Program-made: the position numbers and the translations under genes
From: an uncultured Eubacteriales bacterium
GTDB taxonomy: Bacteria > Bacillota > Clostridia > Lachnospirales > Bianqueaceae
Reading direction: 5' to 3'
Assembly (NCBI GenBank): GCA_902796435.1
Contig: CADBPG010000127.1
Span: forward strand, 1-36,847
DNA length: 36,847 nucleotides
Part shown: positions 7,575 through 21,849 of the stretch, piece after piece
How positions within the stretch are numbered: the first letter of the stretch is position 1
How the letters are laid out: every line of letters begins with the position of its first letter
Notes under the pieces: generated by a model
The model's input: the letters and a program-made list of their open reading frames with translations, nothing else
Databases searched by the model: none
What the model was told of the DNA's origin: nothing

Positions 7575-8990
7575 ATGAGCGCTTATCTGGCATTTGATTA
7601 CGGAGCATCTTCCGGGCGGTTGATGCTCTGCACGTATGACGAGGCCGCAAAGACTATCGACATGCAGGAGATCCATCGTTTCCCGAACGATCCTGTCTGG
7701 ATGGCCGGCCATTTCTACTGGGATTTCCCACGCCTGTTCCATGAAATGAAACAGGGCCTGAAGAAGGTGGCGCAGATGGATGTCAACGTCGATGGTATCG
7801 GTATCGATACCTGGGGTGTCGACTATGGCTTCCTGGATGCGGACGGACGTCTGCTCTCCAACCCCTTCTGCTATCGGGATCCGAAGAACGACCAGGGCAT
7901 GCGAGAGATGGACCAGGTTCATGATTTTGCTGAGTTCTACAAGATCGCCGGCCTGCAGAAGATGGACTTCAATACCGCCTACCAGCTGTATTACGACGTC
8001 AAGCACCGTCCCTATGTGTTCGATGCGGCCGCCACTTTCCTGTTCATGCCGGACCTGTTCGCCTACATGCTGACGGGCGAGAAGGTCTGTGAATATACCA
8101 TTGCCTCCACCTCCCAGCTGCTGGATGCCAAGGGCCGCTGTTGGTCCGAAGAGATCATGGACATGGTCGGTGTTCCGAAGCGTCTGTTCCCGGAACTGGT
8201 CATGCCCGGCACCGTCATCGGCCAACTGAGCCCGCAGGTGCAGGAGGAGACCGGCATGGGTCCGGTACCGGTCATCGCTGTCGGCAGCCATGACACCGCA
8301 TCCGCGGTCTGCGGCGCGCCGATCGCCTCTGAAAACAGTATCTTCATGAGCAGCGGCACCTGGTCGCTGATCGGTATGGAGATCCCGGAACCCATCATCA
8401 ACGAAACGTCCCTGGCCTACAACTTCACCAATGAGGGCGGCGTGGAGCACACGATCCGCTTCCTGAAGAACATCACCGGTCTGTGGATCATCCAGAACCT
8501 GAAGAAGAAGTGGAACCAGACCATGCCGGAGATCGGCTATCCGGAGATCATCCAGGCGGCCAAGGAAGCAGAGCGTACCCACTTCATGATCGATCCGGAC
8601 GATCCGCGCTTCTCAGCCCCCATGGACATGGTCAAGGCCGTGCAGAGCTACTGCGAGGAGCATGGACAGGGCAAGCCTGAGACCATCGGCGAGATCGCCA
8701 TCGCGGCCTACAACGGCCTGGGCGAAAAGTACCGCCAGAACGTGGAAGCGATCGAGACCATGACGGGCAAGACCGTCGACGTCATCAACATGGTCGGCGG
8801 CGGCACCCAGGACAAGTTCCTCTGCCAGATGACAGCCTCCCGCACCGGCAAAAAGGTGCTGGCCGGCCCCATCGAGGCGGCAGTTGTTGGTTCCGTACTG
8901 ATGCAAATGAAAGCGACCGGGCAGCTGGCATCTCTGGCTGAAGGCCGGGAGATCGTCAAACGGTCCTTCCCCATCGAGATCTTTGAATAA
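7575..8990 (+). CDS. rhaB: Rhamnulokinase
   Basis: RhaB is a FGGY-family kinase that converts L-rhamnulose to L-rhamnulose-1-phosphate in the cytoplasm, the step just before aldol cleavage. The 471-residue product carries the rhamnulokinase-type N-terminus FDYGASSGRLML, the GIGIDTWGVDYGFLD segment, the catalytic Asp in GSHDTASAV (about residue 240), and C-terminal VGGGTQDKFLCQM. No encapsulation-type tail is visible, so the kinase probably acts outside the compartment. AAAGGAAAG precedes the ATG. No rhamnose isomerase, mutarotase or transporter is in the window. A broader rhamnulo/fuculokinase activity is possible. Confidence 0.93.
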   Translation: MSAYLAFDYGASSGRLMLCTYDEAAKTIDMQEIHRFPNDPVWMAGHFYWDFPRLFHEMKQGLKKVAQMDVNVDGIGIDTWGVDYGFLDADGRLLSNPFCYRDPKNDQGMREMDQVHDFAEFYKIAGLQKMDFNTAYQLYYDVKHRPYVFDAAATFLFMPDLFAYMLTGEKVCEYTIASTSQLLDAKGRCWSEEIMDMVGVPKRLFPELVMPGTVIGQLSPQVQEETGMGPVPVIAVGSHDTASAVCGAPIASENSIFMSSGTWSLIGMEIPEPIINETSLAYNFTNEGGVEHTIRFLKNITGLWIIQNLKKKWNQTMPEIGYPEIIQAAKEAERTHFMIDPDDPRFSAPMDMVKAVQSYCEEHGQGKPETIGEIAIAAYNGLGEKYRQNVEAIETMTGKTVDVINMVGGGTQDKFLCQMTASRTGKKVLAGPIEAAVVGSVLMQMKATGQLASLAEGREIVKRSFPIEIFE

Positions 8991-9005
8991 GAAGAGGATA
9001 CGATC

Positions 9006-9767
9006 ATGTTGGCTATAGACCGCAGAAATGACATCATGGAGCAGATCCGCCAGGAAGGCTCCGTCCGCGTGACTGATTTAAGCGCAAAGTACGATGTCAC
9101 GGAAGAAACCATCCGCAGGGATCTGGAAAAGCTGGAAAACGAAGGCCGCGTGACCCGTACATATGGAGGAGCGGTCCTCAATAAAGGTACTAAAGAAGAC
9201 CTTTCCATCAATATTCGGGAAACCTTCAACCAGGAGGGCAAGAACCGCATCGCCCGCAAGATCTGTGAACTGATCCACGATGGGGATTCGCTCATGCTGG
9301 ACGCAAGCACGTCCACCATGTTCGTCGCCCGCCATCTGAAGGATAAACGGGGCATCACGGTGATCACCAATTCACTGCGTGTCCCGGTGGAACTGGCCTC
9401 AGTCTCTGATGCCGAGATCATCGTAGCCGGCGGCACCTTCCGTCCCAACTCCCTGTCCATGATCGGGAGCCGCACCACGGACATGCTGGACGGATATTTC
9501 GTCGATAAGGCGATCCTGGGCTGCAAGAGTTTCGACCCGTCCACAGGCACCTACGAGCCCCACGAGATGGAGGCGGAGATCAAGAAGCGTATGCGCCGCA
9601 ACGCCCAGATGGTGATCCTGGCAGCCGACTACACCAAGTTCAATCAGAAGTCCTTTATCCGGACCATCGAGAGCAAGGAGATCAACATTGTAGTGACGGA
9701 TCGAAAGCTCCCGGAGGAGACAGAATTGCTGTTGGAAAAGCAAAATATTTCTTTATATTATGCGTGA
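9006..9767 (+). CDS. DeoR/GlpR-family transcriptional regulator
   Basis: This 253-residue protein has the N-terminal DeoR winged helix (residues about 6-57, including VTDLSAKYDVTEETIRRDLEKL and GRVTRTYGGAV) and a C-terminal sugar-phosphate sensor domain of the DeoRC type (ISIDEKAILGCKSFD-like region and AADYTKFNQ). Such regulators usually repress a sugar-use operon until a phosphorylated sugar binds. It lies 15 bases after rhaB and just upstream of the aldolase promoter, so it most likely controls both promoters of this locus in response to rhamnulose- or fuculose-1-phosphate or DHAP. The ligand is inference. Confidence 0.92.
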   Translation: MLAIDRRNDIMEQIRQEGSVRVTDLSAKYDVTEETIRRDLEKLENEGRVTRTYGGAVLNKGTKEDLSINIRETFNQEGKNRIARKICELIHDGDSLMLDASTSTMFVARHLKDKRGITVITNSLRVPVELASVSDAEIIVAGGTFRPNSLSMIGSRTTDMLDGYFVDKAILGCKSFDPSTGTYEPHEMEAEIKKRMRRNAQMVILAADYTKFNQKSFIRTIESKEINIVVTDRKLPEETELLLEKQNISLYYA

Positions 9768-9774
9768 GCTTGTA

Positions 9775-9803
9775 TTGACTTTTCTGCGCTGCAGTTGTAA
9801 AAT
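9775..9803 (+). promoter_or_regulatory. Second promoter of the locus, upstream of the aldolase and shell genes
   Basis: TTGACT (9775-9780) and TAAAAT (9798-9803) are spaced by exactly 17 bases, starting 7 bases after the deoR stop. This internal promoter would drive the aldolase, dehydrogenases and shell genes separately from rhaB-deoR. Confidence 0.8.
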
Positions 9804-9807
9804 GAAC

Positions 9808-9844
9808 AAAAACACAGAAAAAACAAAGCAAACATCCTGTGTTT
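9808..9844 (+). promoter_or_regulatory. Candidate operator with inverted repeat at the aldolase promoter
   Basis: AAACACAG (9810-9817) and CTGTGTTT (9837-9844) form a perfect 8-base inverted repeat spaced by 19 bases, centred downstream of the -10 box. The left arm lies inside the A-rich motif shared with the rhaB promoter. It could be the DeoR-family binding site. A leader RNA hairpin is the alternative. Confidence 0.5.
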
Positions 9845-9881
9845 CTAACAACCTATGAACACTATTTAGGAGGAATCATCA

Positions 9882-10697
9882 ATGACTGGCGAGTATGAAA
9901 TCAAAAAACAGATTCTCGACGTCGGCCGCCGCATCTACAACCGTGGCATGGTTGCCGCCAATGACGGTAACATCAGCGTCAAGCTGAACGACAACGAATT
10001 CCTGTGCACGCCGACCGGCGTATCCAAGGGCTTCATGACCATGGATATGATCTGCAAGGTCGATGCTGATGGCAATGTGATCCATGCCAACGGTCCTTAC
10101 AAACCGTCTTCTGAGATCAAAATGCACATGCGTGTTTACAAACTGCGTCCTGACGTAAAGAGCGTTGTACACGCACATCCCATGTATGCGACGAGCTACG
10201 CCATCGCCGGTATTCCGCTGACCGCTCCGATCATGCCGGAAGCTGTCATCGCCCTGGGCTGCGTACCGATCGCACCGTATGGCACACCTTCCACCATGGA
10301 GATCCCGGATGCTGTTGAGCCTTTCCTGCAGCATTATGACGCGGTTCTGCTGGAGAACCACGGCGCCCTCAGCTATTCTGATTCTCTGATGGCTGCCTAC
10401 TACAAGATGGAATCTCTGGAATTCTACGCGAAGCTCATGTTCCTGTCCACGCAGCTGGGCGGTCCGAAGAAGCTGAACGACCAGCAGGTGCAGGCACTGT
10501 ATGAGCTGCGCCGCAAGATGGGCCTGACCGGCAAACATCCGGCAGACCTGTGCCAGAAGATCAACGGCGTCGGCTGTGGCTGCCACAGCTGTGACAGTGG
10601 CTGCGCTTCCGGTTCCTGCTCCACGCAGGCCCCCGCAGCTGACAATGACCTGGTCGCGGAAGTGACCCGTCGTATCCTTCAGGAATTAGGCAAATAA
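9882..10697 (+). CDS. Class II aldolase (rhamnulose/fuculose-1-phosphate) with C-terminal encapsulation peptide
   Basis: This zinc aldolase of the FucA/AraD fold should split rhamnulose- or fuculose-1-phosphate into DHAP and L-lactaldehyde. The core shows the catalytic acid in SSEIKMH, the zinc ligands in VVHAHPMYAT and the third His in LLENHGAL. The 271-residue protein is about 50 longer than the FucA core. The extra C-terminus holds a Cys cluster (CGCHSCDSGCASGSC, residues 232-246), a short linker and the amphipathic helix NDLVAEVTRRILQELGK (255-271), a typical cargo signal for a microcompartment. TAGGAGGAA precedes the ATG. Rhamnulokinase upstream favours rhamnulose-1-phosphate; both substrates give the same products. 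Confidence 0.93.
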   Translation: MTGEYEIKKQILDVGRRIYNRGMVAANDGNISVKLNDNEFLCTPTGVSKGFMTMDMICKVDADGNVIHANGPYKPSSEIKMHMRVYKLRPDVKSVVHAHPMYATSYAIAGIPLTAPIMPEAVIALGCVPIAPYGTPSTMEIPDAVEPFLQHYDAVLLENHGALSYSDSLMAAYYKMESLEFYAKLMFLSTQLGGPKKLNDQQVQALYELRRKMGLTGKHPADLCQKINGVGCGCHSCDSGCASGSCSTQAPAADNDLVAEVTRRILQELGK

Positions 10698-10732
10698 GAA
10701 CCCCCAATCGGGCATAAAGGCAGGTGACTTCT

Positions 10733-11710
10733 TTGGCAGGTACCACGCTTTATACCCGTTCCGGTGATTCCGGACAGACCACGCTGGGTGCCGGCCGCAG
10801 AGTCCCCAAGACCAACGGGACCCTGGAAGTGCTGGGCAACATCGACGAGCTGATCAGTCAGATCGCGGTCACCCGCAGCAGCCTGCCCCAGGAAGAAACC
10901 GATCTCACAGGCACGCTGAAGGCACTGCAGAACGACCTGTTGCTTTTAAAGGAAGACATCTCCTCCATGCATCAGGCCCGGCAGATCGGCCAGAAACAGG
11001 TCGAACAGCTGGAAGCGTGGATCGACAGGCTGGCACCCTTCGCAGCGTCGAAGGAGGAGGAGCGGGCGGCTTCGGCCACCGGTTCCGCAGCACAGCTGGA
11101 TCTGTGCCGCAGCCTGGCCCGGCGGGTAGAGCGGTCCTTGATGAAAGCAGGATTGCCTGCGGCCGGCCACCAGAAATACGTCAACCGTCTTTCGGACTAT
11201 TTCTACGCAGCTGCCCGTTATATGGACAGCCGGCAAAGAAACAGAGCCCTGGAAGCGATGCCCCAGCTGGACCGTCCCTTCCCGCTGAAGCTTGCCAAGC
11301 TGCTTTTAGAAGCAGTGGAGCGGGTGGCGGAGGAACGGGGCCTGAAACTGGTGATCGCGGCCTGCGATGCCGCAGGAAGGCCTATCGCAGTCCACGTCAT
11401 GGACGATGCCTTCATCGCCAGCTATGACATTGCGGTCAACAAGGCCTGGACGGCAGTCTCCTTGAAAATGCCGACCAAGGATCTGGCGGAGCTTTGCAAA
11501 CCGGGCGGCAGCCTCTACGGGCTGCAGAACACCAACGGTGGCAAGGTCGTCATCTTCGGCGGCGGCGTCCCGCTGACCGACAGGTCCGGACGCATCATCG
11601 GAGGCGCGGCTGTCAGCGGTTCCACAGCAGAGATCGACACCGAGATGGGTGATATTTGCAAAACCATATTTGATCAATTGTATGAAGCGCTCGGCGCTTC
11701 ATGGACATAA
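10733..11710 (+). CDS. pduO: PduO-like two-domain protein (cobalamin adenosyltransferase plus GlcG/HbpS domain)
   Basis: The N-terminal half (residues about 1-170) is a PduO-type ATP:cob(I)alamin adenosyltransferase fold, with the ATP loop TRSGDSGQT, NIDELI, the RSLARRVER helix and the YVNRLSDYFYAAARY helix. The usual F-x-L-P-G-G segment before the Arg helix is not recognisable (ASATGSAAQ instead), so the cobalamin-side pocket may be altered. The C-terminal part (about 185-325) is the GlcG/HbpS domain of full-length PduO (AVHVMDDAFIASYDIAVNKA, then GGGVPL). I prefer TTG 10733 because AGGTGA (10722-10727) is well placed for it; GTG 10724 lies within that SD. No B12-dependent dehydratase is nearby. 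No encapsulation peptide is obvious. Confidence 0.88.
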   Translation: MAGTTLYTRSGDSGQTTLGAGRRVPKTNGTLEVLGNIDELISQIAVTRSSLPQEETDLTGTLKALQNDLLLLKEDISSMHQARQIGQKQVEQLEAWIDRLAPFAASKEEERAASATGSAAQLDLCRSLARRVERSLMKAGLPAAGHQKYVNRLSDYFYAAARYMDSRQRNRALEAMPQLDRPFPLKLAKLLLEAVERVAEERGLKLVIAACDAAGRPIAVHVMDDAFIASYDIAVNKAWTAVSLKMPTKDLAELCKPGGSLYGLQNTNGGKVVIFGGGVPLTDRSGRIIGGAAVSGSTAEIDTEMGDICKTIFDQLYEALGASWT

Positions 11711-11727
11711 GGAAGGAGGCATCATCT

Positions 11728-13134
11728 TTGGCAATCACGGAAAAAGAGTTGCAAGAACTGGTCCGTGCCGTATTGGCCGAGATGCAGGGCTTACGTCCTT
11801 CACAGCAAGAGGAGACCGGTGTGTTCGACACGATGGAAGAAGCCATCGCCGCAGCGGCACGCGCGCAGCAGGAGATCCGCCGGATGCCTCTGGAGTTTCG
11901 TGAAAAGATCATTTCCAATATCCGCAAGAGCACCATGGAGAATCTCCGCACCTACGCGGAATTCGGTGTCACCGAAACGGGTATGGGCAATGTAGGCCAT
12001 AAGATCCTGAAGCATCAGCTGGTGGCAGAAAAAACACCGGGTACCGAGGACCTGACGACCATCGCCTGGTCCGGCGACCGGGGACTGACACTGGTAGAGC
12101 AGGGACCCTTCGGCGTCATCGGCGCCATCACCCCCTGCACCAACCCCAGTGAAACGGTCATCTGCAACACCATCGGCATGATCGCGGCCGGCAACACTGT
12201 AGTCTTCAATCCGCATCCCGCAGCGATCGGTGTATCCTGCTACGCGGTCAGCAAGATCAACGAAGCATCCATTGCGGCCGGTGGCCCGGCGAACATCGCC
12301 ACCACGGTCAAGAAGCCTACGCTGGAAACCGCGGACGTCATGTTCAAGAGCCCGACGATCCCGCTTCTGGTCGCCACCGGCGGCCCGGGCGTAGTCACCG
12401 CAGTTCTTTCCACCGGTAAACGTGGTATCGGCGCCGGAGCAGGCAATCCGCCCGTCGTCGTCGATGAAACTGCCGATATCGAGAACGCGGCGATCAGCAT
12501 CATCAATGGCTGCACACTGGACAACAACCTCCCCTGCATCGCGGAGAAAGAGGTCGTCGTCGTAGACAGCGTCGCGGACCATCTGATCGATGCCATGGAA
12601 CGCAACGGTGCCTACAAGCTCACGGATCCGGCCAAGATCCAGCAGCTGGCGGAAATGGTCGTGATCCCCAACAAGAAGGGCAAGATGCAGGTCTCGCGTG
12701 ACTGGGTCGGACGCGATGCGTACAAGTTCTTGAACGCCATCGGGATCGACGCAGACCCCAGTGTCAAGTGCATCATCTTCGAGGCACCGGAGGACCACAT
12801 CCTGGTCCAGACCGAACTCATGATGCCGATCCTGGGCATCGTCCGTGCGAAGAACGCGGAAGAGGCCATGGACATGGGTGTGCGCCTGGAGCATGGCAAC
12901 CGCCATTCCGCCCACATGCATTCCAAGAACGTGGACCGGCTGACACGCTTCGGCCAGATGGTCGATACCGCGATCTTTGTCAAGAACGGGCCGTCCTACG
13001 CGGCACTGGGCTTCGGTGGCGAAGGTTTCCCGACCTTCACCATCGCCAGCCGTACCGGCGAGGGCTTAACGTCCGCCAAGACCTTTACGAAATCCAGACG
13101 CTGCGTCATGACCGACGCGCTCTGCATTCGATAG
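11728..13134 (+). CDS. pduP: CoA-acylating aldehyde dehydrogenase, PduP/EutE type
   Basis: This enzyme should oxidise L-lactaldehyde (or propionaldehyde) to the acyl-CoA with NAD+ and CoA inside the compartment. The 468-residue product has the catalytic Cys in DNNLPCIAEKEV (about residue 270) and the PduP-like FGVIGAITPCTNPSET segment. Its first 22 residues, MAITEKELQELVRAVLAEMQGL, form an amphipathic encapsulation-like helix followed by a linker. I chose TTG 11728 because AAGGAGG (11713-11719) lies 8 bases upstream. ATG 11701 lies within the pduO end and has no SD. The only aldehyde made by this locus is lactaldehyde, so lactyl-CoA is the likely product. Confidence 0.94.
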   Translation: MAITEKELQELVRAVLAEMQGLRPSQQEETGVFDTMEEAIAAAARAQQEIRRMPLEFREKIISNIRKSTMENLRTYAEFGVTETGMGNVGHKILKHQLVAEKTPGTEDLTTIAWSGDRGLTLVEQGPFGVIGAITPCTNPSETVICNTIGMIAAGNTVVFNPHPAAIGVSCYAVSKINEASIAAGGPANIATTVKKPTLETADVMFKSPTIPLLVATGGPGVVTAVLSTGKRGIGAGAGNPPVVVDETADIENAAISIINGCTLDNNLPCIAEKEVVVVDSVADHLIDAMERNGAYKLTDPAKIQQLAEMVVIPNKKGKMQVSRDWVGRDAYKFLNAIGIDADPSVKCIIFEAPEDHILVQTELMMPILGIVRAKNAEEAMDMGVRLEHGNRHSAHMHSKNVDRLTRFGQMVDTAIFVKNGPSYAALGFGGEGFPTFTIASRTGEGLTSAKTFTKSRRCVMTDALCIR

Positions 13135-13161
13135 AATCTCGAGAAGGGAGAGAAGTAACCT

Positions 13162-14397
13162 ATGGATATCAACCAGGAAAGTGTTGAGAAGATCGTAGCC
13201 CGCGTCCTCGCGGAAATGGGCCGCACTGGAAAGACCGGATCCCTGACTCCCTCGTATCAGGAACCGGCTCAGCACTTTGACATTCCCAAACGCGCGAAAG
13301 TCGCCATGCTGACCGCTCTGCGCCGCATCGAGGTCAAGGAATTCGACATTCCGGAGATCGGTGACGACGAGATGCTGGTCCATGTAGAAGGCGCCGGCGT
13401 TTGCGGAACCGACGTACACGAGTATAAGAACGATCCGTTCGGTCTGATCCCGGTAGTTCTGGGACATGAGGGTACCGGCCAGATCGTCAAGATGGGCAAG
13501 AACGTCACACAGGATACGACGGGCAAGCCGCTCCATGTGGGCGACCGCATCGTCACCTGCACCATTCCCTGCAAAAAGTGCGACAACTGCCTGAACATGA
13601 GCGACCGTGACAACCTGTGCGAGAATTCCGGCATCTATGGTCTGATGCCTGAAGACGACCACTATCACTTCAATGGATGGTTCGGTGAGTACATCATCAT
13701 CCGTCCGGGTTCCACCTTCTTCAAGGTCAACGATATGAGCTTGAAGATGCGCATGCTGATCGAGCCTGCGGCCGTCGTGGTCCACGCTGTCGAGCGTGCC
13801 AAGAAGACCGGCCTCATCTCCTTCAACAGCAACGTGCTGATCCAGGGCGTCGGCCCCATCGGTATGATGCTGCTGGCGGTCGTCCGTACCATGGGTGTGG
13901 AGAACATCACCGTCGTCGATGGCGATGAGAAGCGTCTGCAGACAGCGAAGCGCTTCGGTGCGAAGTACACGGTCAACTTCAAGAATTACAAGGATCTGGA
14001 CGAGCAGATCCGCCGCATCAAGGAGATCACCGGCGGCCGTGGAGCGGACTTCGCTTTCCAGTGCACCGGCGTACCTTCCGCAGCGGCCAATGTATGGAAA
14101 TTCGTCAAGCGCGGCGGCGGTCTGTGCGAGGTCGGCTTCTTCGTCGACAACGGCAGCTGCTCCATCAACCCGCACTTTGACATCTGCAACAAGGAGATCA
14201 CCCTGGTCGGTTCCTGGACCTACAACGTTCGCGAGTATCCGACCACGATCGAATTCCTGAAGCGTGCTGTCGGTATCGGCCTGCCGATCGAAGATATGGT
14301 CACCCATCAGTTCGGTCTGGATGAAATGAACGATGCGATGGATACGAATATGAAGCAGCTGGGACTGAAGGTTGCTTACGTCAACAAGAACTTCTGA
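13162..14397 (+). CDS. Zinc-dependent alcohol dehydrogenase with N-terminal encapsulation peptide
   Basis: A medium-chain zinc alcohol dehydrogenase of 411 residues. Catalytic-zinc residues are in GVCGTDVHE (Cys81) and LGHEGTG (His102, Glu103). The structural-zinc cysteines are in CKKCDNCLNMSDRDNLC. The Rossmann motif GVGPIG is followed by VVDGDEKR, whose Asp suggests NAD(H). Residues 1-22 (MDINQESVEKIVARVLAEMG) are an amphipathic helix like that of the aldehyde dehydrogenase. It probably reduces L-lactaldehyde to 1,2-propanediol, returning NAD+ to the aldehyde dehydrogenase. The substrate is inferred from context. It lies 27 bases after the aldehyde dehydrogenase gene. Confidence 0.9.
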   Translation: MDINQESVEKIVARVLAEMGRTGKTGSLTPSYQEPAQHFDIPKRAKVAMLTALRRIEVKEFDIPEIGDDEMLVHVEGAGVCGTDVHEYKNDPFGLIPVVLGHEGTGQIVKMGKNVTQDTTGKPLHVGDRIVTCTIPCKKCDNCLNMSDRDNLCENSGIYGLMPEDDHYHFNGWFGEYIIIRPGSTFFKVNDMSLKMRMLIEPAAVVVHAVERAKKTGLISFNSNVLIQGVGPIGMMLLAVVRTMGVENITVVDGDEKRLQTAKRFGAKYTVNFKNYKDLDEQIRRIKEITGGRGADFAFQCTGVPSAAANVWKFVKRGGGLCEVGFFVDNGSCSINPHFDICNKEITLVGSWTYNVREYPTTIEFLKRAVGIGLPIEDMVTHQFGLDEMNDAMDTNMKQLGLKVAYVNKNF

Positions 14398-14425
14398 GAG
14401 TTCGTAATGTAAGGAGCGAAATACG

Positions 14426-14773
14426 ATGGATGCGGTAGGAATGCTCGAGGTCTTCGGATTTGCCTGTGCCATGGTTGCGGCCGATGCCGGCTGCAAGGCG
14501 GGCAATGTCTACATCGAAGCCATCGACAAAAACAAGCCGGCCAATGCGGAATCCCTTCCGGTACCGCTGTTGGTCTGCGTCAAGTTCCGCGGCTCGGTCG
14601 CCGATGTGGAGGCCGCCATGGAAGCGGCAGAAAAGGCTGCATTAGCGATGACCGGGATCTACTCCAAGCACATCATCGCGAAGCCGGACGAAGGCGCTGA
14701 GGCCATGCTGAAACTCAGCTGCATCGGTACACCGGTCCCGCCAGGACAGGCGCCCACGAAGGACCGCTTCTGA
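14426..14773 (+). CDS. BMC-H shell protein, extended form
   Basis: A 115-residue single BMC-domain protein that should form flat hexamers in the shell. It starts MDAVGMLEVFGFACAMVAADAGCKAGNV, the BMC beta-alpha core. It has a longer loop (DKNKPANAESLPVP) before the second strand and a Pro-rich C-terminal tail (TPVPPGQAPTKDRF) that the other three hexamer proteins lack. The loop and tail suggest a specialised shell position or a role in binding cargo. AAGGAGCG lies upstream of the ATG. It is the first of four consecutive BMC-H genes. Confidence 0.93.
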   Translation: MDAVGMLEVFGFACAMVAADAGCKAGNVYIEAIDKNKPANAESLPVPLLVCVKFRGSVADVEAAMEAAEKAALAMTGIYSKHIIAKPDEGAEAMLKLSCIGTPVPPGQAPTKDRF

Positions 14774-14806
14774 TAAGATTTTAAGACAACCAAAGGAGAA
14801 GACGAC

Positions 14807-15082
14807 ATGCAGGAAGCATTAGGAATGATCGAGACCCGGGGTCTCGTAGCTGCTATCGAGGCGGCGGATGCAATGGTCAAGGCGGCGGACGTCGTACTGA
14901 TCGGTACCGAAAAGATCGGATCCGGACTGGTCTCCGTCATGGTCCGCGGTGATGTGGCGGCCGTTAAGTCCGCGACTGAAGTCGGCGCACAGAATGCCTC
15001 CCGTCTGGGTGAGCTCGTAGCCGTTCATGTCATCCCCAGACCGCACAAGGACGTTGAGTTTATTCTCCCGTCTCTGGACTGA
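14807..15082 (+). CDS. pduA: BMC-H shell protein, PduA type (copy 1)
   Basis: A 91-residue canonical BMC-H protein ([42 protein letters not shown]) that forms the hexameric shell tiles whose central pore admits small metabolites. It is about 83 percent identical by eye to the gene product at 15480-15752 (15 differences in 90 aligned positions), so the two arose by duplication. AAAGGAGAA precedes the ATG. Confidence 0.95.
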
Positions 15083-15126
15083 TCACTTGACAAAAAACCA
15101 TAAGCGCAGTACAAAGGAAGAGGCAT

Positions 15127-15417
15127 ATGCAGGCAATCGGCTTATTTGAGATCAAGGGTAATGTCCCGGCTGTAGTCGCGGTGGACGCGATGACCAAGGC
15201 AGCCAATGTACATTTTCTGACCTGGGAGCAGAAACTCGGAGGATGGCTCGTCACGATCGTCATCCAGGGTGAGGTTTCCGCGGTACAGGCAGCGATCGAT
15301 GCAGCCAACCGGACGGCGATCAGCAAGGTTGCAGCGTCCGCTGTCATTGCCAACCCGCACCCCGAAGTCATGCGCCAGATCGAAACCAGCCAAAAAAGGC
15401 AAGGGTATGATTCTTAA
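15127..15417 (+). CDS. BMC-H shell protein, divergent hexamer
   Basis: A 96-residue single BMC-domain protein (MQAIGLFEIKGNVPAVVAVDAMTKAANVHFLTWEQKLGG in segments, then VIANPHPEVM) clearly different from its two PduA-like neighbours, between which it is inserted. The HFLTWEQKLGG strand is typical of a second BMC-H class found alongside PduA-type proteins in catabolic loci. It probably contributes a hexamer with a different pore or edge surface. AAAGGAAGAGG lies upstream of the ATG. Confidence 0.92.
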   Translation: MQAIGLFEIKGNVPAVVAVDAMTKAANVHFLTWEQKLGGWLVTIVIQGEVSAVQAAIDAANRTAISKVAASAVIANPHPEVMRQIETSQKRQGYDS

Positions 15418-15479
15418 GTTTTTCCAAAGTCTTTCAAAAGACAACAACATAATATGAAAACCATAAAGGAGGATTCATC

Positions 15480-15752
15480 ATGGAAGCATTAGGTATGATT
15501 GAGACAAGAGGACTGGTAGCAGCGATCGAAGCCGCCGATGCAATGGTCAAGGCCGCTAACGTTGTTCTGATCGGTACCGAGAAGATCGGTTCCGGCCTCG
15601 TATCCGTCATGATCCGTGGCGATGTCGGAGCTGTCAAGGCTGCGACCGAAGCCGGCAGCAATGCGGCTCAGAACCTGGGCGAGATCATCGCGGTACACGT
15701 CATTCCGAGACCGCATGCAGACGTCGAAAAGATTCTGCCGACCTTAGACTGA
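15480..15752 (+). CDS. pduA: BMC-H shell protein, PduA type (copy 2)
   Basis: A 90-residue PduA-type hexamer protein and paralogue of the product at 14807-15082. Differences cluster in the second helix region ([12 protein letters not shown] against [12 protein letters not shown]) and near the C-terminus, whereas the first 45 residues are almost the same. The DNA of that conserved half differs at many third codon positions. AAAGGAGGA lies 6 bases before the ATG, a very strong site that fits a major shell component. The gene is followed by two large hairpins. Confidence 0.95.
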
Positions 15753-15775
15753 TCCGATCGAAGGTCATACCATGG

Positions 15776-15846
15776 TTTCCAGTCACGATGACTGGGAATC
15801 AGGGAAGGCCCCCATCCGGCACATGTGATGGAGGTCTTCCCTGATT
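15776..15846 (+). other. Tandem RNA hairpins between the shell genes and pduL
   Basis: Two adjacent inverted repeats lie in this 120-base gap. The first (15776-15798) is a 10-bp stem with a 3-base loop. The second (15797-15846) has 20-base arms, AATCAGGGAAGGCCCCCATC against GATGGAGGTCTTCCCTGATT, with one G-U pair, one mismatch and a 10-base loop. No T-run follows either, so they do not look like rho-independent terminators. They may protect or define the 3' end of the upstream shell-protein messages and lower expression of pduL and later genes. They share two bases and could partly exclude each other. Confidence 0.7.
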
Positions 15847-15872
15847 CGATTTGAAAGAAAGAGGGTATTCCG

Positions 15873-16523
15873 ATGGAAAACGAAAGAATGATCAATGAGA
15901 TCGTTTCCCTGATCGTGGATAAATTAAAGGGACAGGAAGTGCTCCCTGCTTCTGACAAACGTGTCAAGGTCGGTGTTTCGGCCCGCCACGTCCACCTGAG
16001 CCGCGAGGATATGGACATCCTCTTCGGTAAGGGTTCTGAACTGACCCCGCAGAAGGATCTGATGGGCGGCCAGTTCGCGGCAAAAGAGACCGTGACCATC
16101 ATCGGTCTGAAGCTGCGTGCCATCGAAAACGTCCGCGTCCTAGGCCCGCTGCGCAAGCAGACGCAGGTCGAAGTCTCCGCGACGGACTGCATCCGCCTGG
16201 GTGTCAAAGCTCCGGTGCGCCTGTCCGGCGACCTGAAGGGCTCCGCGCCGATCACCATCATTGGTCCGAAGGGCGCTGTTACGATCCAAGAGGGCTGCAT
16301 CGTAGCCCTGCGCCACATCCACATGTCTCCGGCAGACGCCGCGGCCTACGGTGTCAAGGACAAGCAGGTCGTCCGCGTGCAGATGGGCGGTGCCCGCGGT
16401 GGCTATCTGGACAATGTTCCGGTCCGTGTGGACCCGAGCTTTACAACGGAAATGCATATCGATACCGATGAGGCCAATGCCCTGGGCATCCACAACGGTA
16501 TGGAACTTACCATCATCGTATAA
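15873..16523 (+). CDS. pduL: PduL phosphate acyltransferase with N-terminal encapsulation peptide
   Basis: PduL exchanges CoA for phosphate on an acyl-CoA inside the compartment, recycling CoA for the aldehyde dehydrogenase and yielding an acyl phosphate for ATP synthesis by a kinase. The 216-residue product shows both zinc-binding beta-barrel signatures: SARHVHLS (His39, His41) and LRHIHMS (His148, His150), plus TEMHIDTDEAN near the end. Residues 1-20 (ENERMINEIVSLIVDKLKG) form an amphipathic cargo helix. In this locus the substrate should be lactyl-CoA. GAGGG lies upstream of the ATG; the gene follows the tandem hairpins. Confidence 0.96.
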   Translation: MENERMINEIVSLIVDKLKGQEVLPASDKRVKVGVSARHVHLSREDMDILFGKGSELTPQKDLMGGQFAAKETVTIIGLKLRAIENVRVLGPLRKQTQVEVSATDCIRLGVKAPVRLSGDLKGSAPITIIGPKGAVTIQEGCIVALRHIHMSPADAAAYGVKDKQVVRVQMGGARGGYLDNVPVRVDPSFTTEMHIDTDEANALGIHNGMELTIIV

Positions 16524-16534
16524 GGAGAATCACT

Positions 16535-16807
16535 ATGCTGCTTGCAAAAGTCATTGGTACCGTGGTCGCTACCCGCAAGAATGAGAATCTGGTGGGCAGC
16601 AAGTTCCTGATCGTGGAGACGCTGGAAGAAATGAAGGACGGCGGTCGTCGCCTTGTGGCCGTGGATCAGGCCGGCGCCGGCATCGGCGAACTGGTCCTGG
16701 TGGCCCTGGGCAGCGCGGCACGTCAGGAGCCTTCCTCAGAAAACTCCTCCATCGACGCCGCCATCGTCGGCATCGTGGACAATCCGGACGAGATCTATAT
16801 CAGATAA
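16535..16807 (+). CDS. eutN: BMC-P pentameric vertex protein (EutN/CcmL family)
   Basis: A 90-residue EutN/CcmL family protein. Pentamers of this family cap the twelve vertices of the polyhedral shell. The N-terminus MLLAKVIGTVVATRKNENLVG, the central LIVETL and VAVDQAGAGIGELVLV segment, and the C-terminal DAAIVGIVD are the family landmarks. AAGGAGAA lies just upstream, 11 bases after pduL. It is the only vertex protein seen, so shell closure should depend on it. Confidence 0.95.
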   Translation: MLLAKVIGTVVATRKNENLVGSKFLIVETLEEMKDGGRRLVAVDQAGAGIGELVLVALGSAARQEPSSENSSIDAAIVGIVDNPDEIYIR

Positions 16808-16819
16808 CAGGTGTGGAAT

Positions 16820-17383
16820 ATGGACATGAAAAATGAACTGCGTGCCCTGGGCATGCTGGAACTGAAGTCGATCGCCAAAGGCTTCTACTGCGCGGATACC
16901 GTTGTGAAGACGGCCGAGGTAGAGCTGGTCAAGGCGACACCCATCTGCCCGGGTAAATTCATCATCCTGATCCAGGGCGGGATCGCCGCTGTCGCGGCAG
17001 CTCTGGAAGCCGGCCGCAACATGTGCGGTGATTATGTCGTGGACAGCTTCCTTCTGGGCAACCCCCACGAGCATGTCTTTGGCGCTCTGGCCGATACCTA
17101 CACCTTCGAGAAGACCCAGGCCATGGGTGTGGTCGAGACCTGGGCGGTCCCGGCAGCACTGGTCGCTGCGGATCAAGGCGCCAAGGCAGCCCAGTCCGAT
17201 GTGGTCAAGGTCGGTCTGGCGCAACAGCTGGGCGGCAAAGCCTACGTGGTCTTCACCGGCGAAGTCGCCGCTGTACAGGCCTCCGTCGAGGCCGCAGTAA
17301 ATGACCTGCGTGTCAGCGCCAAGCTGATCGACACCACGGTCATCCCGAACCCGGATCTCAAGCTTTGGGAAGCGTTGGTATAA
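16820..17383 (+). CDS. pduT: BMC-T shell protein, PduT-like with Fe-S cysteine
   Basis: A 187-residue tandem-BMC protein whose two domains (ALGMLELKSIAKGF and MGVVETWAVPAALVAADQG) make pseudohexameric trimers. The loop KATPICPGKF matches the PduT loop (ICPGKF), whose Cys binds a [4Fe-4S] cluster at the trimer axis; here it is Cys43. This suggests an electron-conducting or cluster-delivering pore. I chose ATG 16820 because AGGTG (16809-16813) lies 6 bases upstream; GTG 16811 would lie inside that SD. It is the last gene of the operon. No PduS-type electron-transfer partner is in the window. Confidence 0.93.
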   Translation: MDMKNELRALGMLELKSIAKGFYCADTVVKTAEVELVKATPICPGKFIILIQGGIAAVAAALEAGRNMCGDYVVDSFLLGNPHEHVFGALADTYTFEKTQAMGVVETWAVPAALVAADQGAKAAQSDVVKVGLAQQLGGKAYVVFTGEVAAVQASVEAAVNDLRVSAKLIDTTVIPNPDLKLWEALV

Positions 17384-18627: not shown

Positions 18628-18691
18628 AACCCCTGTACAACCACCGGAATGCGTACTCTTAGCAGACGGTGGATATACAGGGGTTATTTTA
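18628..18691. terminator. Bidirectional terminator between convergent genes
   Basis: AACCCCTGTA-CAA-CCACCG (18628-18646) pairs with CGGTGG-ATA-TACAGGGGTT (18667-18685), a 16-bp stem with a 3x3 internal loop. ATTTTA follows on the plus strand and TTTTGTTTA on the minus strand, so it can serve both the methyltransferase and the MutS-like genes. Confidence 0.85.
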
Positions 18692-20212
18692 TAGAATACC
18701 GACCTCGCGTTCCAATACCTGTTTCGCGTAGCTGGTGAAGCCGGGCTGGCCGCGCAGGATCTTGTAGCTGGTGCGGACGTCGGCGCCTTCGCCTTCGACA
18801 CGGACGATCAGGCTGGAGACCTTGCTGCCGTTCAAAGCCGCGTTGATGGCATCGCAGCTGGAGGCCAGGTCGTAGATGTGGGTGACCCAGACACCGTGGT
18901 AACCTTTCAGCTTGCAGACACTCAGAATCTCGCGGGAGAGGTAGAGGTTCTCCATCGGAGAAGTACCAGTGATCGGCTCGTTGAAAAGCATCAGGCTGTT
19001 GGGGGTCATGTCGGTCATGCCGGCGCGCAGGGTCTTCAGTTCCTGGCCCAGTTTGCCGTGCTGGAGTTCGGTGTTCTCCTCGTGGGAGAAGACGGTCACG
19101 ATCCCGGTCACCGGGCTGATGGAGGCAGAGGTCGCAGGTACGGGCCAGCCCAACTGGAACAGGACCTGCAGGGTGCCCACGGTGCGCAGGAAGGTGGTCT
19201 TGCCGCCCTGGTTCATACCGGTCAGGATGAAAAGCTCGCCGCCGGGGGCAAAATCGATATCATTGGCGATGGCCTTTTTGGTGTGCAGCAGCAGGACCGG
19301 ATCGATCATGTCCTTCGCGGTGAAAGCCTTTTCCTCCATGGGGCGGATGTCGGCGAAGATCAGCGGGATGCGGAAGCTGTCCATCTGGCGCCAGTAGTTC
19401 AGGCCGGCCAGGTAGAAGTTCAGATCACGGTACAGGTCGTCCAGGTCCTCGATCATGTCGCGCATGGTGGAGAGAAACTGGCGGTAATGGATGTGCATCG
19501 CGTCGTGGAGCAATTCCTCGACAGGGGAGCGCATCTCCTTGACCGGACCCAAGTCCCAGAGCTTGTCGGCGTGACGGCCTTCGCGGCTGCCAAAGGGCAA
19601 AAGCTTGCGGGCATATTTATCCTTGTGGATGCCGGTGACGGCACACTGGATGACGTGCATCTCCTCATCCATGGTAAAGCGCAGAGAATAGCTGGCGATG
19701 GAATCCAGACCACTGGTCACCGCGGCCCAGTCCTCATCGAAGGTCTTGAAATAGTGGCGGTCCAGCTTTTCCTGGACGACCTCGTAGAGGCGGTTCAGAC
19801 CGCGGGAGGTCAGCTTGCCGGCTTCGATCTGCTTATGCAGGGCACCTGCCAGATCGGACAAGGTGTCGTGCGCGTGCTTGAAAAGCTTGAATTCCTGCAG
19901 ACTGTCGGCATCGAAACCACTGCCGGACGGTGCGCGGCAGACCGACTGGATCTCCTGGATGCACAGGCAGACGGCCCGGACTTTGAGCACGATCTCGGGG
20001 AAACTGCGGAATTCGCTGATGATCTCCTTGCGGTAGACCAGATCCTCCGGATCCGCGGTCAGGAAGTGCTTCCAGTTCAGCTCCTGGGCGTGGGCCAGGT
20101 CGAAGAGTTCTTCCATGTACTCCTGCAGGAGCAGGTCCGTCAGTGCCTGATCGGAGATGGCAAAGGAAACAGCCTGCGCAGTATCCTCATGCGCGTGTGT
20201 CAGAAATCCCAT
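18689..20212 (-). CDS. MutS-like ATPase, lever/clamp and ATPase domains only (downstream copy)
   Basis: A 507-residue MutS-family ATPase without the N-terminal mismatch-recognition domain and without a C-terminal Smr nuclease domain. The ATPase core has Walker A GMNQGGKT (332-339), Walker B LMLFNEPITGTSP and the VTHIYDLA switch segment. The helical N-terminal half looks like MutS lever or clamp regions. I chose ATG 20212, 8 bases after AAGGAGG; GTG 20221 would overlap that SD. It overlaps the end of the upstream paralogue by 26 bases, so both are expressed together and may form a heterodimer. A role in mismatch repair is unproven. Confidence 0.88.
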   Translation of the reverse strand: MGFLTHAHEDTAQAVSFAISDQALTDLLLQEYMEELFDLAHAQELNWKHFLTADPEDLVYRKEIISEFRSFPEIVLKVRAVCLCIQEIQSVCRAPSGSGFDADSLQEFKLFKHAHDTLSDLAGALHKQIEAGKLTSRGLNRLYEVVQEKLDRHYFKTFDEDWAAVTSGLDSIASYSLRFTMDEEMHVIQCAVTGIHKDKYARKLLPFGSREGRHADKLWDLGPVKEMRSPVEELLHDAMHIHYRQFLSTMRDMIEDLDDLYRDLNFYLAGLNYWRQMDSFRIPLIFADIRPMEEKAFTAKDMIDPVLLLHTKKAIANDIDFAPGGELFILTGMNQGGKTTFLRTVGTLQVLFQLGWPVPATSASISPVTGIVTVFSHEENTELQHGKLGQELKTLRAGMTDMTPNSLMLFNEPITGTSPMENLYLSREILSVCKLKGYHGVWVTHIYDLASSCDAINAALNGSKVSSLIVRVEGEGADVRTSYKILRGQPGFTSYAKQVLEREVGIL

Positions 20213-21809
20213 GACCGGCACCTCCTTCGTACATATTTTCCTCCTGTTCCTTGCGGCAATAGGCGGAAGCTTCCTGCATCAGCTGCGGATCATCCAGAAG
20301 ATCCTCCAGAGTGATCTGGAAGCTCTTCGCGGTCTCCATGGCATAACTGTTGCCCAGAGGCGCGGAAACCTTCAGCCGGTAGGTGTGCTCCATGCCCTCG
20401 CCCTCGTGGAAGGTGGAGACAGTGATCAGACTGATGAAGCGGCGGGCATCCTCCTCGGACAGCCGGGCTTTCAGCAGATAGTAGATATCGTAAAGATGGG
20501 TGACCACGATGTGGGTGATGGACCCGTTCAGGAAACGCTGCATCAGGTCACCACAGATGGAGACGGCTTCGATGGGGTTGGTGCTGGTCATCGGCTCGTT
20601 GATGAGGACCAGATCCTGCGCCGTTGCCTGCTGCATGATGAAGGACAGACGCTGGATCTCCACGCCCATACGGGAGACCGTCATGGAAGAATCTTCCCCA
20701 GAGGAGAAGAGGGTATACAGTTTGTGGAAGGGGCGGAACCGGAAGGACTGGGCCGGTACCGGCAGACCTAACTGGGCCAGGACCAGGGACTGGCCGATGG
20801 TCTTCAGATAGGAAGTCTTACCGGAATGGTTGGCGCCGGTGATCAGTGTGGAAGAAGCGCTGGGCAGAGTGACGTTCTTGCCCTCGATGCCGCCTAAGTG
20901 CAGCGCCAGGTCCGGATACATCAATGCTTCGGATTCCAGGTTTTCGCCCTTGGGGTCCGCCAGGCACAGTGTGTAGCCGGCCGCGGTGAAGGCATCCCGT
21001 AATTGCTGGCCGATCACCAGGAAATGCAGGCTGTCCTCCAGATCCAGAAGCTCATCTGTACGCAACGGGCGGACAGATTGCAGGAGTTTGTTTACTTTAC
21101 CGATCTCGGAGTGATAATGCTTCTCGTAATGCTGGAGCAGATACTCCTCGAAATGGGTGCCGTAGCTGGCACGGGTATATTTCATGGCCGGGAACAGGGA
21201 GGTGGAGGAGGCGCCAGGCGCTGTTTGCGCCAGCAACGGCTCCGACTCGGCGACATCGGTATCGTCCCGGATCACACCGATCTCGGTGGCATCGCCGGTC
21301 TCCTTCGTATTGATACCGACGTAGAAATGGCGGGATAAGGGCAGGGTGCGGGGCACCTGCTCCACGACGGCCTGGATCTGCGCGAAGGCGGGATCCTTGC
21401 GGATCTCCTCAAGCAGGGTTTTAAGTGCCTGAAGACGCTTGGAGATAAGATTGCCTGCCACCATCGTCTCCAGAGCGGAGACCAGCTGCAGGAAGACCTT
21501 GAGCACGCGGTAGCTGTAGAGGACCTCGTGCAAAGTGTCCGCAGAGCGGCGCTGTTTATCCAGCTCATCACGCAGACTGCAGACTTCTGTATAAGCGGCT
21601 GTGCAGGCGGCGGTGTCCGTCAGGTCATGGAAGAGCTGATAGCGGGCATCCAGCTCCGCGGGGTCGCTTTCAAAATAGCTAAGAGCCCAGGCAAGCGCCT
21701 CGTCCTCGGACAGATCCTGTGCGCACAGGCACAGCACCTTCACGATGTCCAGATCGAGAAAAGCCTGTTTGAGCTCGGTATTTTCGTTATGGGATACAAC
21801 CAGATTCAT
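20187..21809 (-). CDS. MutS-like ATPase, lever/clamp and ATPase domains only (upstream copy)
   Basis: A 540-residue MutS-family ATPase and distant paralogue of its downstream neighbour. It has Walker A GANHSGKT (325-332), Walker B LVLINEPMTSTNP and VVTHLYDIYYLL. The N-terminal half is helical and lacks the Phe-x-Glu mismatch-recognition domain of true MutS. The start is ATG 21809, with AAGGAG a suitable distance upstream; an in-frame earlier start at 21839 has no SD. It is transcribed from a promoter at 21850-21878, divergent from pepT. Its function is unknown; DNA junction or recombination control is a family-based possibility. Confidence 0.88.
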   Translation of the reverse strand: MNLVVSHNENTELKQAFLDLDIVKVLCLCAQDLSEDEALAWALSYFESDPAELDARYQLFHDLTDTAACTAAYTEVCSLRDELDKQRRSADTLHEVLYSYRVLKVFLQLVSALETMVAGNLISKRLQALKTLLEEIRKDPAFAQIQAVVEQVPRTLPLSRHFYVGINTKETGDATEIGVIRDDTDVAESEPLLAQTAPGASSTSLFPAMKYTRASYGTHFEEYLLQHYEKHYHSEIGKVNKLLQSVRPLRTDELLDLEDSLHFLVIGQQLRDAFTAAGYTLCLADPKGENLESEALMYPDLALHLGGIEGKNVTLPSASSTLITGANHSGKTSYLKTIGQSLVLAQLGLPVPAQSFRFRPFHKLYTLFSSGEDSSMTVSRMGVEIQRLSFIMQQATAQDLVLINEPMTSTNPIEAVSICGDLMQRFLNGSITHIVVTHLYDIYYLLKARLSEEDARRFISLITVSTFHEGEGMEHTYRLKVSAPLGNSYAMETAKSFQITLEDLLDDPQLMQEASAYCRKEQEENMYEGGAGHGISDTRA

Positions 21810-21849
21810 AGGGGACGATCTCCTTGGTTTCAATAACAAATACTATGTT

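Follow-up and report, generated by a model that had tools for sequence, protein, structure and literature searches.

A tandem pair of short MutS-like ATPases in a family of rumen and gut Clostridia: candidate subunits of a heterodimeric clamp

Background

MutS proteins tend to form dimers, the bacterial ones typically homodimers, and heterodimeric MutS is treated as a eukaryotic feature (PMC12292046). Bacillus subtilis MutS2 splits collided ribosomes (PMC10897456), and KamC (NF052383, 508 model positions) is named as a lysine 5,6-aminomutase reactivase ATPase. In 2010, Weinberg et al. (PMC2864571) listed mutS among the genes that follow the fluoride riboswitch; beyond that one-line mention, the literature searched contained nothing on the MutS pairs described below. 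In Enterobacter cloacae FRM, the island operon ppaC-uspA-eno-gpmA-crcB has been shown to confer fluoride resistance (PMC5533749), and the MutS genes lie outside this operon. Here we analyze a 36,847-nucleotide stretch of DNA (the window) from an uncultured rumen bacterium of the Clostridia, which encodes two short MutS-like ATPases in tandem.

The gene pair and its products

Both genes lie on the minus strand. Gene A, the first of the pair (20187..21809), codes for a short MutS-like ATPase of 540 aa that starts at an ATG at 21809, with a Shine-Dalgarno sequence (AAGGAG, 21820..21825) 10 nt upstream. Gene B, the second (18689..20212), codes for a similar protein of 507 aa from an ATG at 20212, and its Shine-Dalgarno sequence (AAGGAGG, 20221..20227), 8 nt upstream of that ATG, is located within the 3' coding end of A. 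The two reading frames and their 26-nt overlap (20187..20212), as given in a preliminary description of this DNA, are borne out, and overlap or near-contact is preserved in the family with varying length, other genomes having overlaps of 23, 17 or 4 nt or a 3-nt gap. Sequence identity between A and B is 24% over 476 aa and each contains the MutS_V domain, in agreement with their initial designation as divergent MutS-like paralogues. Their low dN/dS values (~0.13 for A and ~0.08 for B by NG86, against one relative of the same genus) indicate that both are real genes constrained by purifying selection; no support was found for the long opposite-strand ORFs over the pair (e.g. 18878-20314).

In Pfam searches MutS_V is the only domain above cut-off in A (65.6 bits) and B (57.9 bits; cut-off 30.2), and this match, together with an intact GxNxxGKT, places both in the MutS superfamily. 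Neither protein has a match to MutS_I, MutS_II or Smr, and both end shortly past domain V, so that the earlier observation of a missing mismatch domain and Smr nuclease holds. Thus, they lack the domain I and connector II that define MutS1, for which there is no Pfam match and which precede the start of the structural superposition at about residue 260 of E. coli MutS, as well as the Smr domain of MutS2; the MutS2 model TIGR01069 recovers them with 65.1 and 65.7 bits against a cut-off of 400. Pfam does not recognize domains III and IV, which have diverged too far.

Single-chain AlphaFold2 models, computed from alignments of 16 (A) and 17 (B) sequences, have mean pLDDT values of 76.1 for A and 77.5 for B, with pLDDT below 50 around parts of the ATPase domain of A. 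Both superpose over nearly their full length on MutS, MSH2 and MutS2 (residues ~260 to 800 of E. coli MutS). In structural alignments with VIA-align, A matches E. coli MutS 261-800 with Z 23.7 (363 residues, rmsd 4.8) and has MutS2 as its top match (Z 24.4), and B matches E. coli MutS with Z 29.4 (392 residues, rmsd 4.1), its top match being MSH2 of MutSbeta (Z 33.0), with MutS2 at Z 30.8. With the domain limits of PMC12292046, A and B are predicted to comprise MutS domains III-IV-V without I and II. At the clamp position both models have a two-stranded hairpin and an adjoining low-confidence stretch, and hence the clamp, as read from the DSSP strings, looks reduced in both.

Family alignments of 15 orthologues each of A and B locate the ATPase motifs. 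On the minus strand, the Walker A motif of A, TGANHSGKTSYL, lies at 20805..20840 and its Walker B, Asn404-Glu405, at 20595..20600; the Walker A motif of B, TGMNQGGKTTFL, lies at 19187..19222 and its Walker B, Asn411-Glu412, at 18977..18982. The loops quoted in the preliminary description, GANHSGKT in A and GMNQGGKT in B, are confirmed. The orthologues are 35-84% (A) and 43-90% (B) identical to the window copies. TG[AP]NHSGKTSYL and SRMG are kept across the family in A, and TG[IM]NQGGKTT[FY]L and HGKLGQE in B. A feature missed earlier is that Walker B reads NE in both proteins, as opposed to DE in canonical MutS and in MutS1, MutS2 and KamC. The STF signature of the latter three is also gone from both.

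A clade of short MutS-like proteins with repeated pairing

The preliminary description had proposed a phylogeny against groups MutS1-MutS8. With MutS1, MutS2 and KamC as references, the comparison places the pair outside all three, in a clade of short MutS-like proteins (100/99 and 100/100 in two trees); KamC and MutS2 group together (100/98). Nearly all members of this clade have a Walker B NE and have lost the STF signature, and NE is present in all compared members except two single-gene proteins, L113 and L117, which keep DE. In L113 (7365-11946) two genes follow, one DUF2201 VWA-like and one that was recognized by eye as coding for a MoxR-like AAA ATPase.

The clade holds both single genes, which occur in several families of the order, and tandem pairs, which are found in three sub-branches: the window's family; family f22, whose members have genomes of 3-6 Mb; and families f2 and f6. 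In f22 the first genes form the sister group of the second genes (100/98), so that the duplication there was local. Constraining all first genes to a single clade fails the AU test (p=0.0006), which rules out a single ancient duplication behind all pairs, and pairing therefore arose repeatedly. Given that the wider clade has single genes, pairing is a derived and repeated state that is not universal in the clade. The trees do not unite the A and B proteins of the window's family, whose placement is provisional because long branches meet there; uniting them by constraint is borderline (p=0.048). As regards gene context in f22, the pair of L104 (7097-11072) is preceded on the same strand by a regulator with HTH and B12-binding domains, L103 and L110 have ORF sizes arranged as in L104, and the pairs of L105 (7837-12489), L106 (7149-12027) and L107 (6835-11425) lie beside a gene that appears by eye to code for a TMEM165/GDT1-like cation transporter.

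Co-inheritance and gene neighborhoods in the family

Among 58 relatives searched, 19 genomes belong to the window's family. A is present in all 19; B is present in 18 and is missing only from a genome whose contig stops next to A. In each of the 17 family genomes that are assessable, which span five genera, the two genes are adjacent and in the order A-B; in the other two the pair is split or cut by contig ends. Named matches are rumen and gut Clostridia MAGs. Hence, both paralogues always occur together in the assessable family genomes, as in an MSH4-MSH5-type pair, and the check for constant adjacency suggested in the preliminary description comes out positive in the family. Frequent occurrence of each gene alone, which would have spoken against the proposal, does not apply to the family orthologues, although single genes do exist in the wider clade.

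The flanks are genus-dependent. One type has TsaD and an LTA-synthase-like gene upstream (both assigned by eye) and AlaX downstream; another combines a ClpC-like gene with an unknown protein, and others have a GH123 protein or, as judged by eye, a lipoprotein. No operon partner is conserved across the family, no consistent neighbor hints at a substrate, and recombination and repair genes are not conserved next to the pair. The pair is therefore a unit of its own, to which operon context gives no clue. Four loci from two genera (L044:9782-15009, L036, L039 and L047) have, close to A but on the other strand, a gene encoding an unknown protein of ~220 aa, which in three of the four adjoins a ClpC/ClpB-like ATPase gene.

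The window also contains, at 7575-17383, a fucose/rhamnose-type bacterial microcompartment locus that codes for an FGGY kinase, a DeoR regulator, a class II aldolase, ALDH, ADH, PduL, BMC shell proteins and a PduO-like (cobalamin) adenosyltransferase with an HbpS domain; a tie between this locus and the pair is ruled out by the change of neighbors between genera. A defense system was likewise discarded, PADLOC having given only weak, ATPase-level matches (best mad8, E 0.0004).

The window's genome also encodes a full MutS1 (an open frame of 893 aa) and a full MutS2 (835). It has, in addition, a third short protein with MutS_V, of 530 aa and with the canonical DE (L055:7934-9526, C144). This protein has a very long tree branch, and its gene adjoins a glycerol-1-phosphate-dehydrogenase-like gene and is located upstream of a DinG/Rad3-like helicase.

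Related plasmid pairs in fluoride islands

A tblastn search of plasmids with B yielded 47-49 records, most with two matching places, which are adjacent genes in every record inspected. The hosts include Klebsiella, Citrobacter, Enterobacter, Salmonella and E. coli and, among others, Burkholderia, Caballeronia, Rhodococcus, Mycobacterium and Alicyclobacillus. In the tree, each of the two plasmid genes groups with its counterpart in the f2/f6 pairs. Pairs from Enterobacteria, Burkholderia and Rhodococcus are situated in an island whose other genes include crcB or DUF190 and a spare enolase, to which a varying mix of pyrophosphatase, phosphoglycerate mutase, universal stress proteins (USPs) and antiporters is added. 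Exceptions are Tsukamurella, with a pair lacking visible fluoride genes, and Rubrobacter, where the neighbors are only a USP, an antiporter and a P-type ATPase.

Rfam searches detected 21 fluoride riboswitches over six such plasmid loci, and at least three plasmid pairs stand directly behind one. In M. branderi (L144, 10205-13353) 33 nt separate the end of the riboswitch from the first MutS gene; in Burkholderia (L147, 7082-10377) it lies ~149 nt upstream of that gene, and in Alicyclobacillus (L149, 7130-10353) ~116 nt upstream. In Caballeronia (L146) it is upstream of an unannotated pair, and in E. coli RefSeq annotates it upstream of an antiporter-USP-MutS-MutS unit. Riboswitch-linked tandem genes stand at L143:11192-16341 and L157:5027-10176 as well as at L144, L147 and L149, on plasmids from unrelated bacteria. 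The VTH motif has become VTF in all seven first subunits from plasmids and is kept in all eight second subunits. With the switch histidine gone from the first subunits, one of the pair's ATP sites is changed, and such a one-sided loss is what would be expected of an obligate asymmetric heterodimer.

There is no such signal at the window's pair. RF01734 matched neither the window nor any of five sampled family loci; a riboswitch scored above cut-off in only one of the 19 family genomes, on a contig other than that of the pair, and the window's own genome has a sub-threshold match, again on another contig. CrcB was not found in the 19 family genomes, with the control positive in 10 of 14. Orthology of A with the first and B with the second plasmid gene gave AU p values of 0.24 and 0.285, which neither favor nor reject it. 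Fluoride regulation of the window's pair was thus not found in riboswitch and CrcB searches of the window and family genomes, and in light of these results we assign the fluoride link to the sister branch; for the window's pair it could serve as a lead.

A candidate heterodimeric clamp and its alternatives

With slightly better than even confidence, we propose that A and B pair up as the subunits of an ATP-gated, heterodimeric MutS-fold clamp. Such a clamp would consist of the core, reduced clamp and ATPase domains only, and translational coupling in the two-gene unit would supply equal amounts of A and B. A would bind B, and ATP binding at composite sites would close the clamp; hydrolysis might be slow, given that the Walker B Asp is replaced by Asn in both, and the cargo could be a bulky nucleic acid or ribonucleoprotein as opposed to a mismatch. 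The two genes are probably the products of a duplication, a process that gave rise to pairs repeatedly in the clade. This proposal is favored by the strict adjacency amid changing flanks, the kept overlap and the Shine-Dalgarno sequence of B inside A; by the distinct invariant Walker A and signature motifs of the two proteins, the latter SRMG in A and HGKLG in B; by the VTF/VTH asymmetry of the related plasmid pairs and the recurrence of tandem pairs in three sub-branches; and by the superposition of both models on MutS domains III-V and the tendency of MutS proteins to dimerize (PMC12292046).

However, co-inheritance also fits two homodimers acting in one pathway, and single-gene members in several families of the order imply that the fold needs no partner. 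We therefore give some, clearly lesser, weight to separate homodimers, or to one purely regulatory subunit, with adjacency merely reflecting a tandem duplication kept in an operon; the strict co-retention of A and B despite their divergence and the one-sided motif changes in related pairs speak against this. If the subunits do pair, they could embrace branched DNA such as Holliday junctions and D-loops and regulate recombination in the manner of MSH4-MSH5. The restriction to domains III-V, as in MutS2, where the absence of I-II opens a wide DNA channel (PMC12292046), is compatible with such a role, as is the best superposition of B on MSH2 chains. We nevertheless regard it as unlikely, because no sequence affinity to recombination MutS proteins was shown in trees with MutS1, MutS2 and KamC as references, domains III and IV are below Pfam detection, and conserved recombination or repair neighbors are wanting.

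Remodeling of ribosomes or other RNPs, as by MutS2, appears doubtful: MutS2 is among the closest structural matches of both models and has a published action on ribosomes, but A and B are without KOW and Smr, the parts which recruit MutS2 to collided ribosomes (PMC10897456), and the genome already has a full MutS2. Similarly improbable is a role in reactivating enzymes or as a stress chaperone, for which KamC and the fluoride-induced pairs would be the models. KamC is the top NCBIfam match of both proteins, and related pairs accompany spare copies of the fluoride-inhibited enzymes enolase and pyrophosphatase behind fluoride riboswitches. Yet the KamC scores (92.6 and 69.3 bits) are well under the required 300 or more, ordinary MutS2 proteins score higher (about 220-250 bits), and KamC itself, with its DE and STF, falls with MutS2; membership among KamC or B12-enzyme reactivases can accordingly be rejected. 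Lysine 5,6-aminomutase is unmatched in the window's genome, as it also is in the control genomes, so that this negative does not establish its absence, and the riboswitch searches around the family pairs were negative. More speculatively, and with low probability, the window's pair and those of the fluoride islands could together make up a single, ancient family of obligate bacterial MutS heterodimers whose ATPase is one-sided and which protect or rescue a cellular machine stalled by blocked phosphoryl-transfer chemistry; the D-to-N change in the Walker B of both subunits might then leave the clamp less trapped by metal-fluoride ADP complexes.

Comparison with known systems

The closest counterparts of the window's pair are the tandem MutS proteins linked to the fluoride riboswitch, for example WP_008786682 and WP_008786683 from the E. 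coli plasmid p027_SK3a and WP_046499031 and WP_046499035 from a Klebsiella plasmid. These too are two short MutS_V proteins (~510 aa) encoded in tandem, with a Walker B NE and a position in the same clade; their genes overlap by 4 nt. They are ~25% identical to the window's pair, and fluoride islands and riboswitches are present only on the plasmid side. In the plasmid cases examined, the mutS genes behind the riboswitch, of the kind noted in 2010 (PMC2864571), are pairs of this clade and not mismatch-repair MutS. The MutS2 core shares the predicted fold and the domain set III-V with A and B, but MutS2 is a homodimer of another clade with KOW/Smr, DE and STF, whereas the window's pair has none of these and combines NE with two unlike subunits. 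KamC is similar in length and gives the best NCBIfam score, but differs in its DE and STF and in its grouping with MutS2. Eukaryotic MSH4-MSH5 resembles the pair as two unlike MutS paralogues without the mismatch domain, an analogy of architecture only, and a link to recombination is not seen for A and B. With respect to the ATPase site, the engineered D693N variant of E. coli MutS (PDB 3k0s) carries the same D-to-N change, at a position that we infer, from the DE alignment column, to match the Walker B Asn of A and B. If unlike subunits have paired repeatedly in a widespread bacterial clade, these proteins could offer simple, soluble models for the evolution of heterodimers and asymmetric ATP sites.
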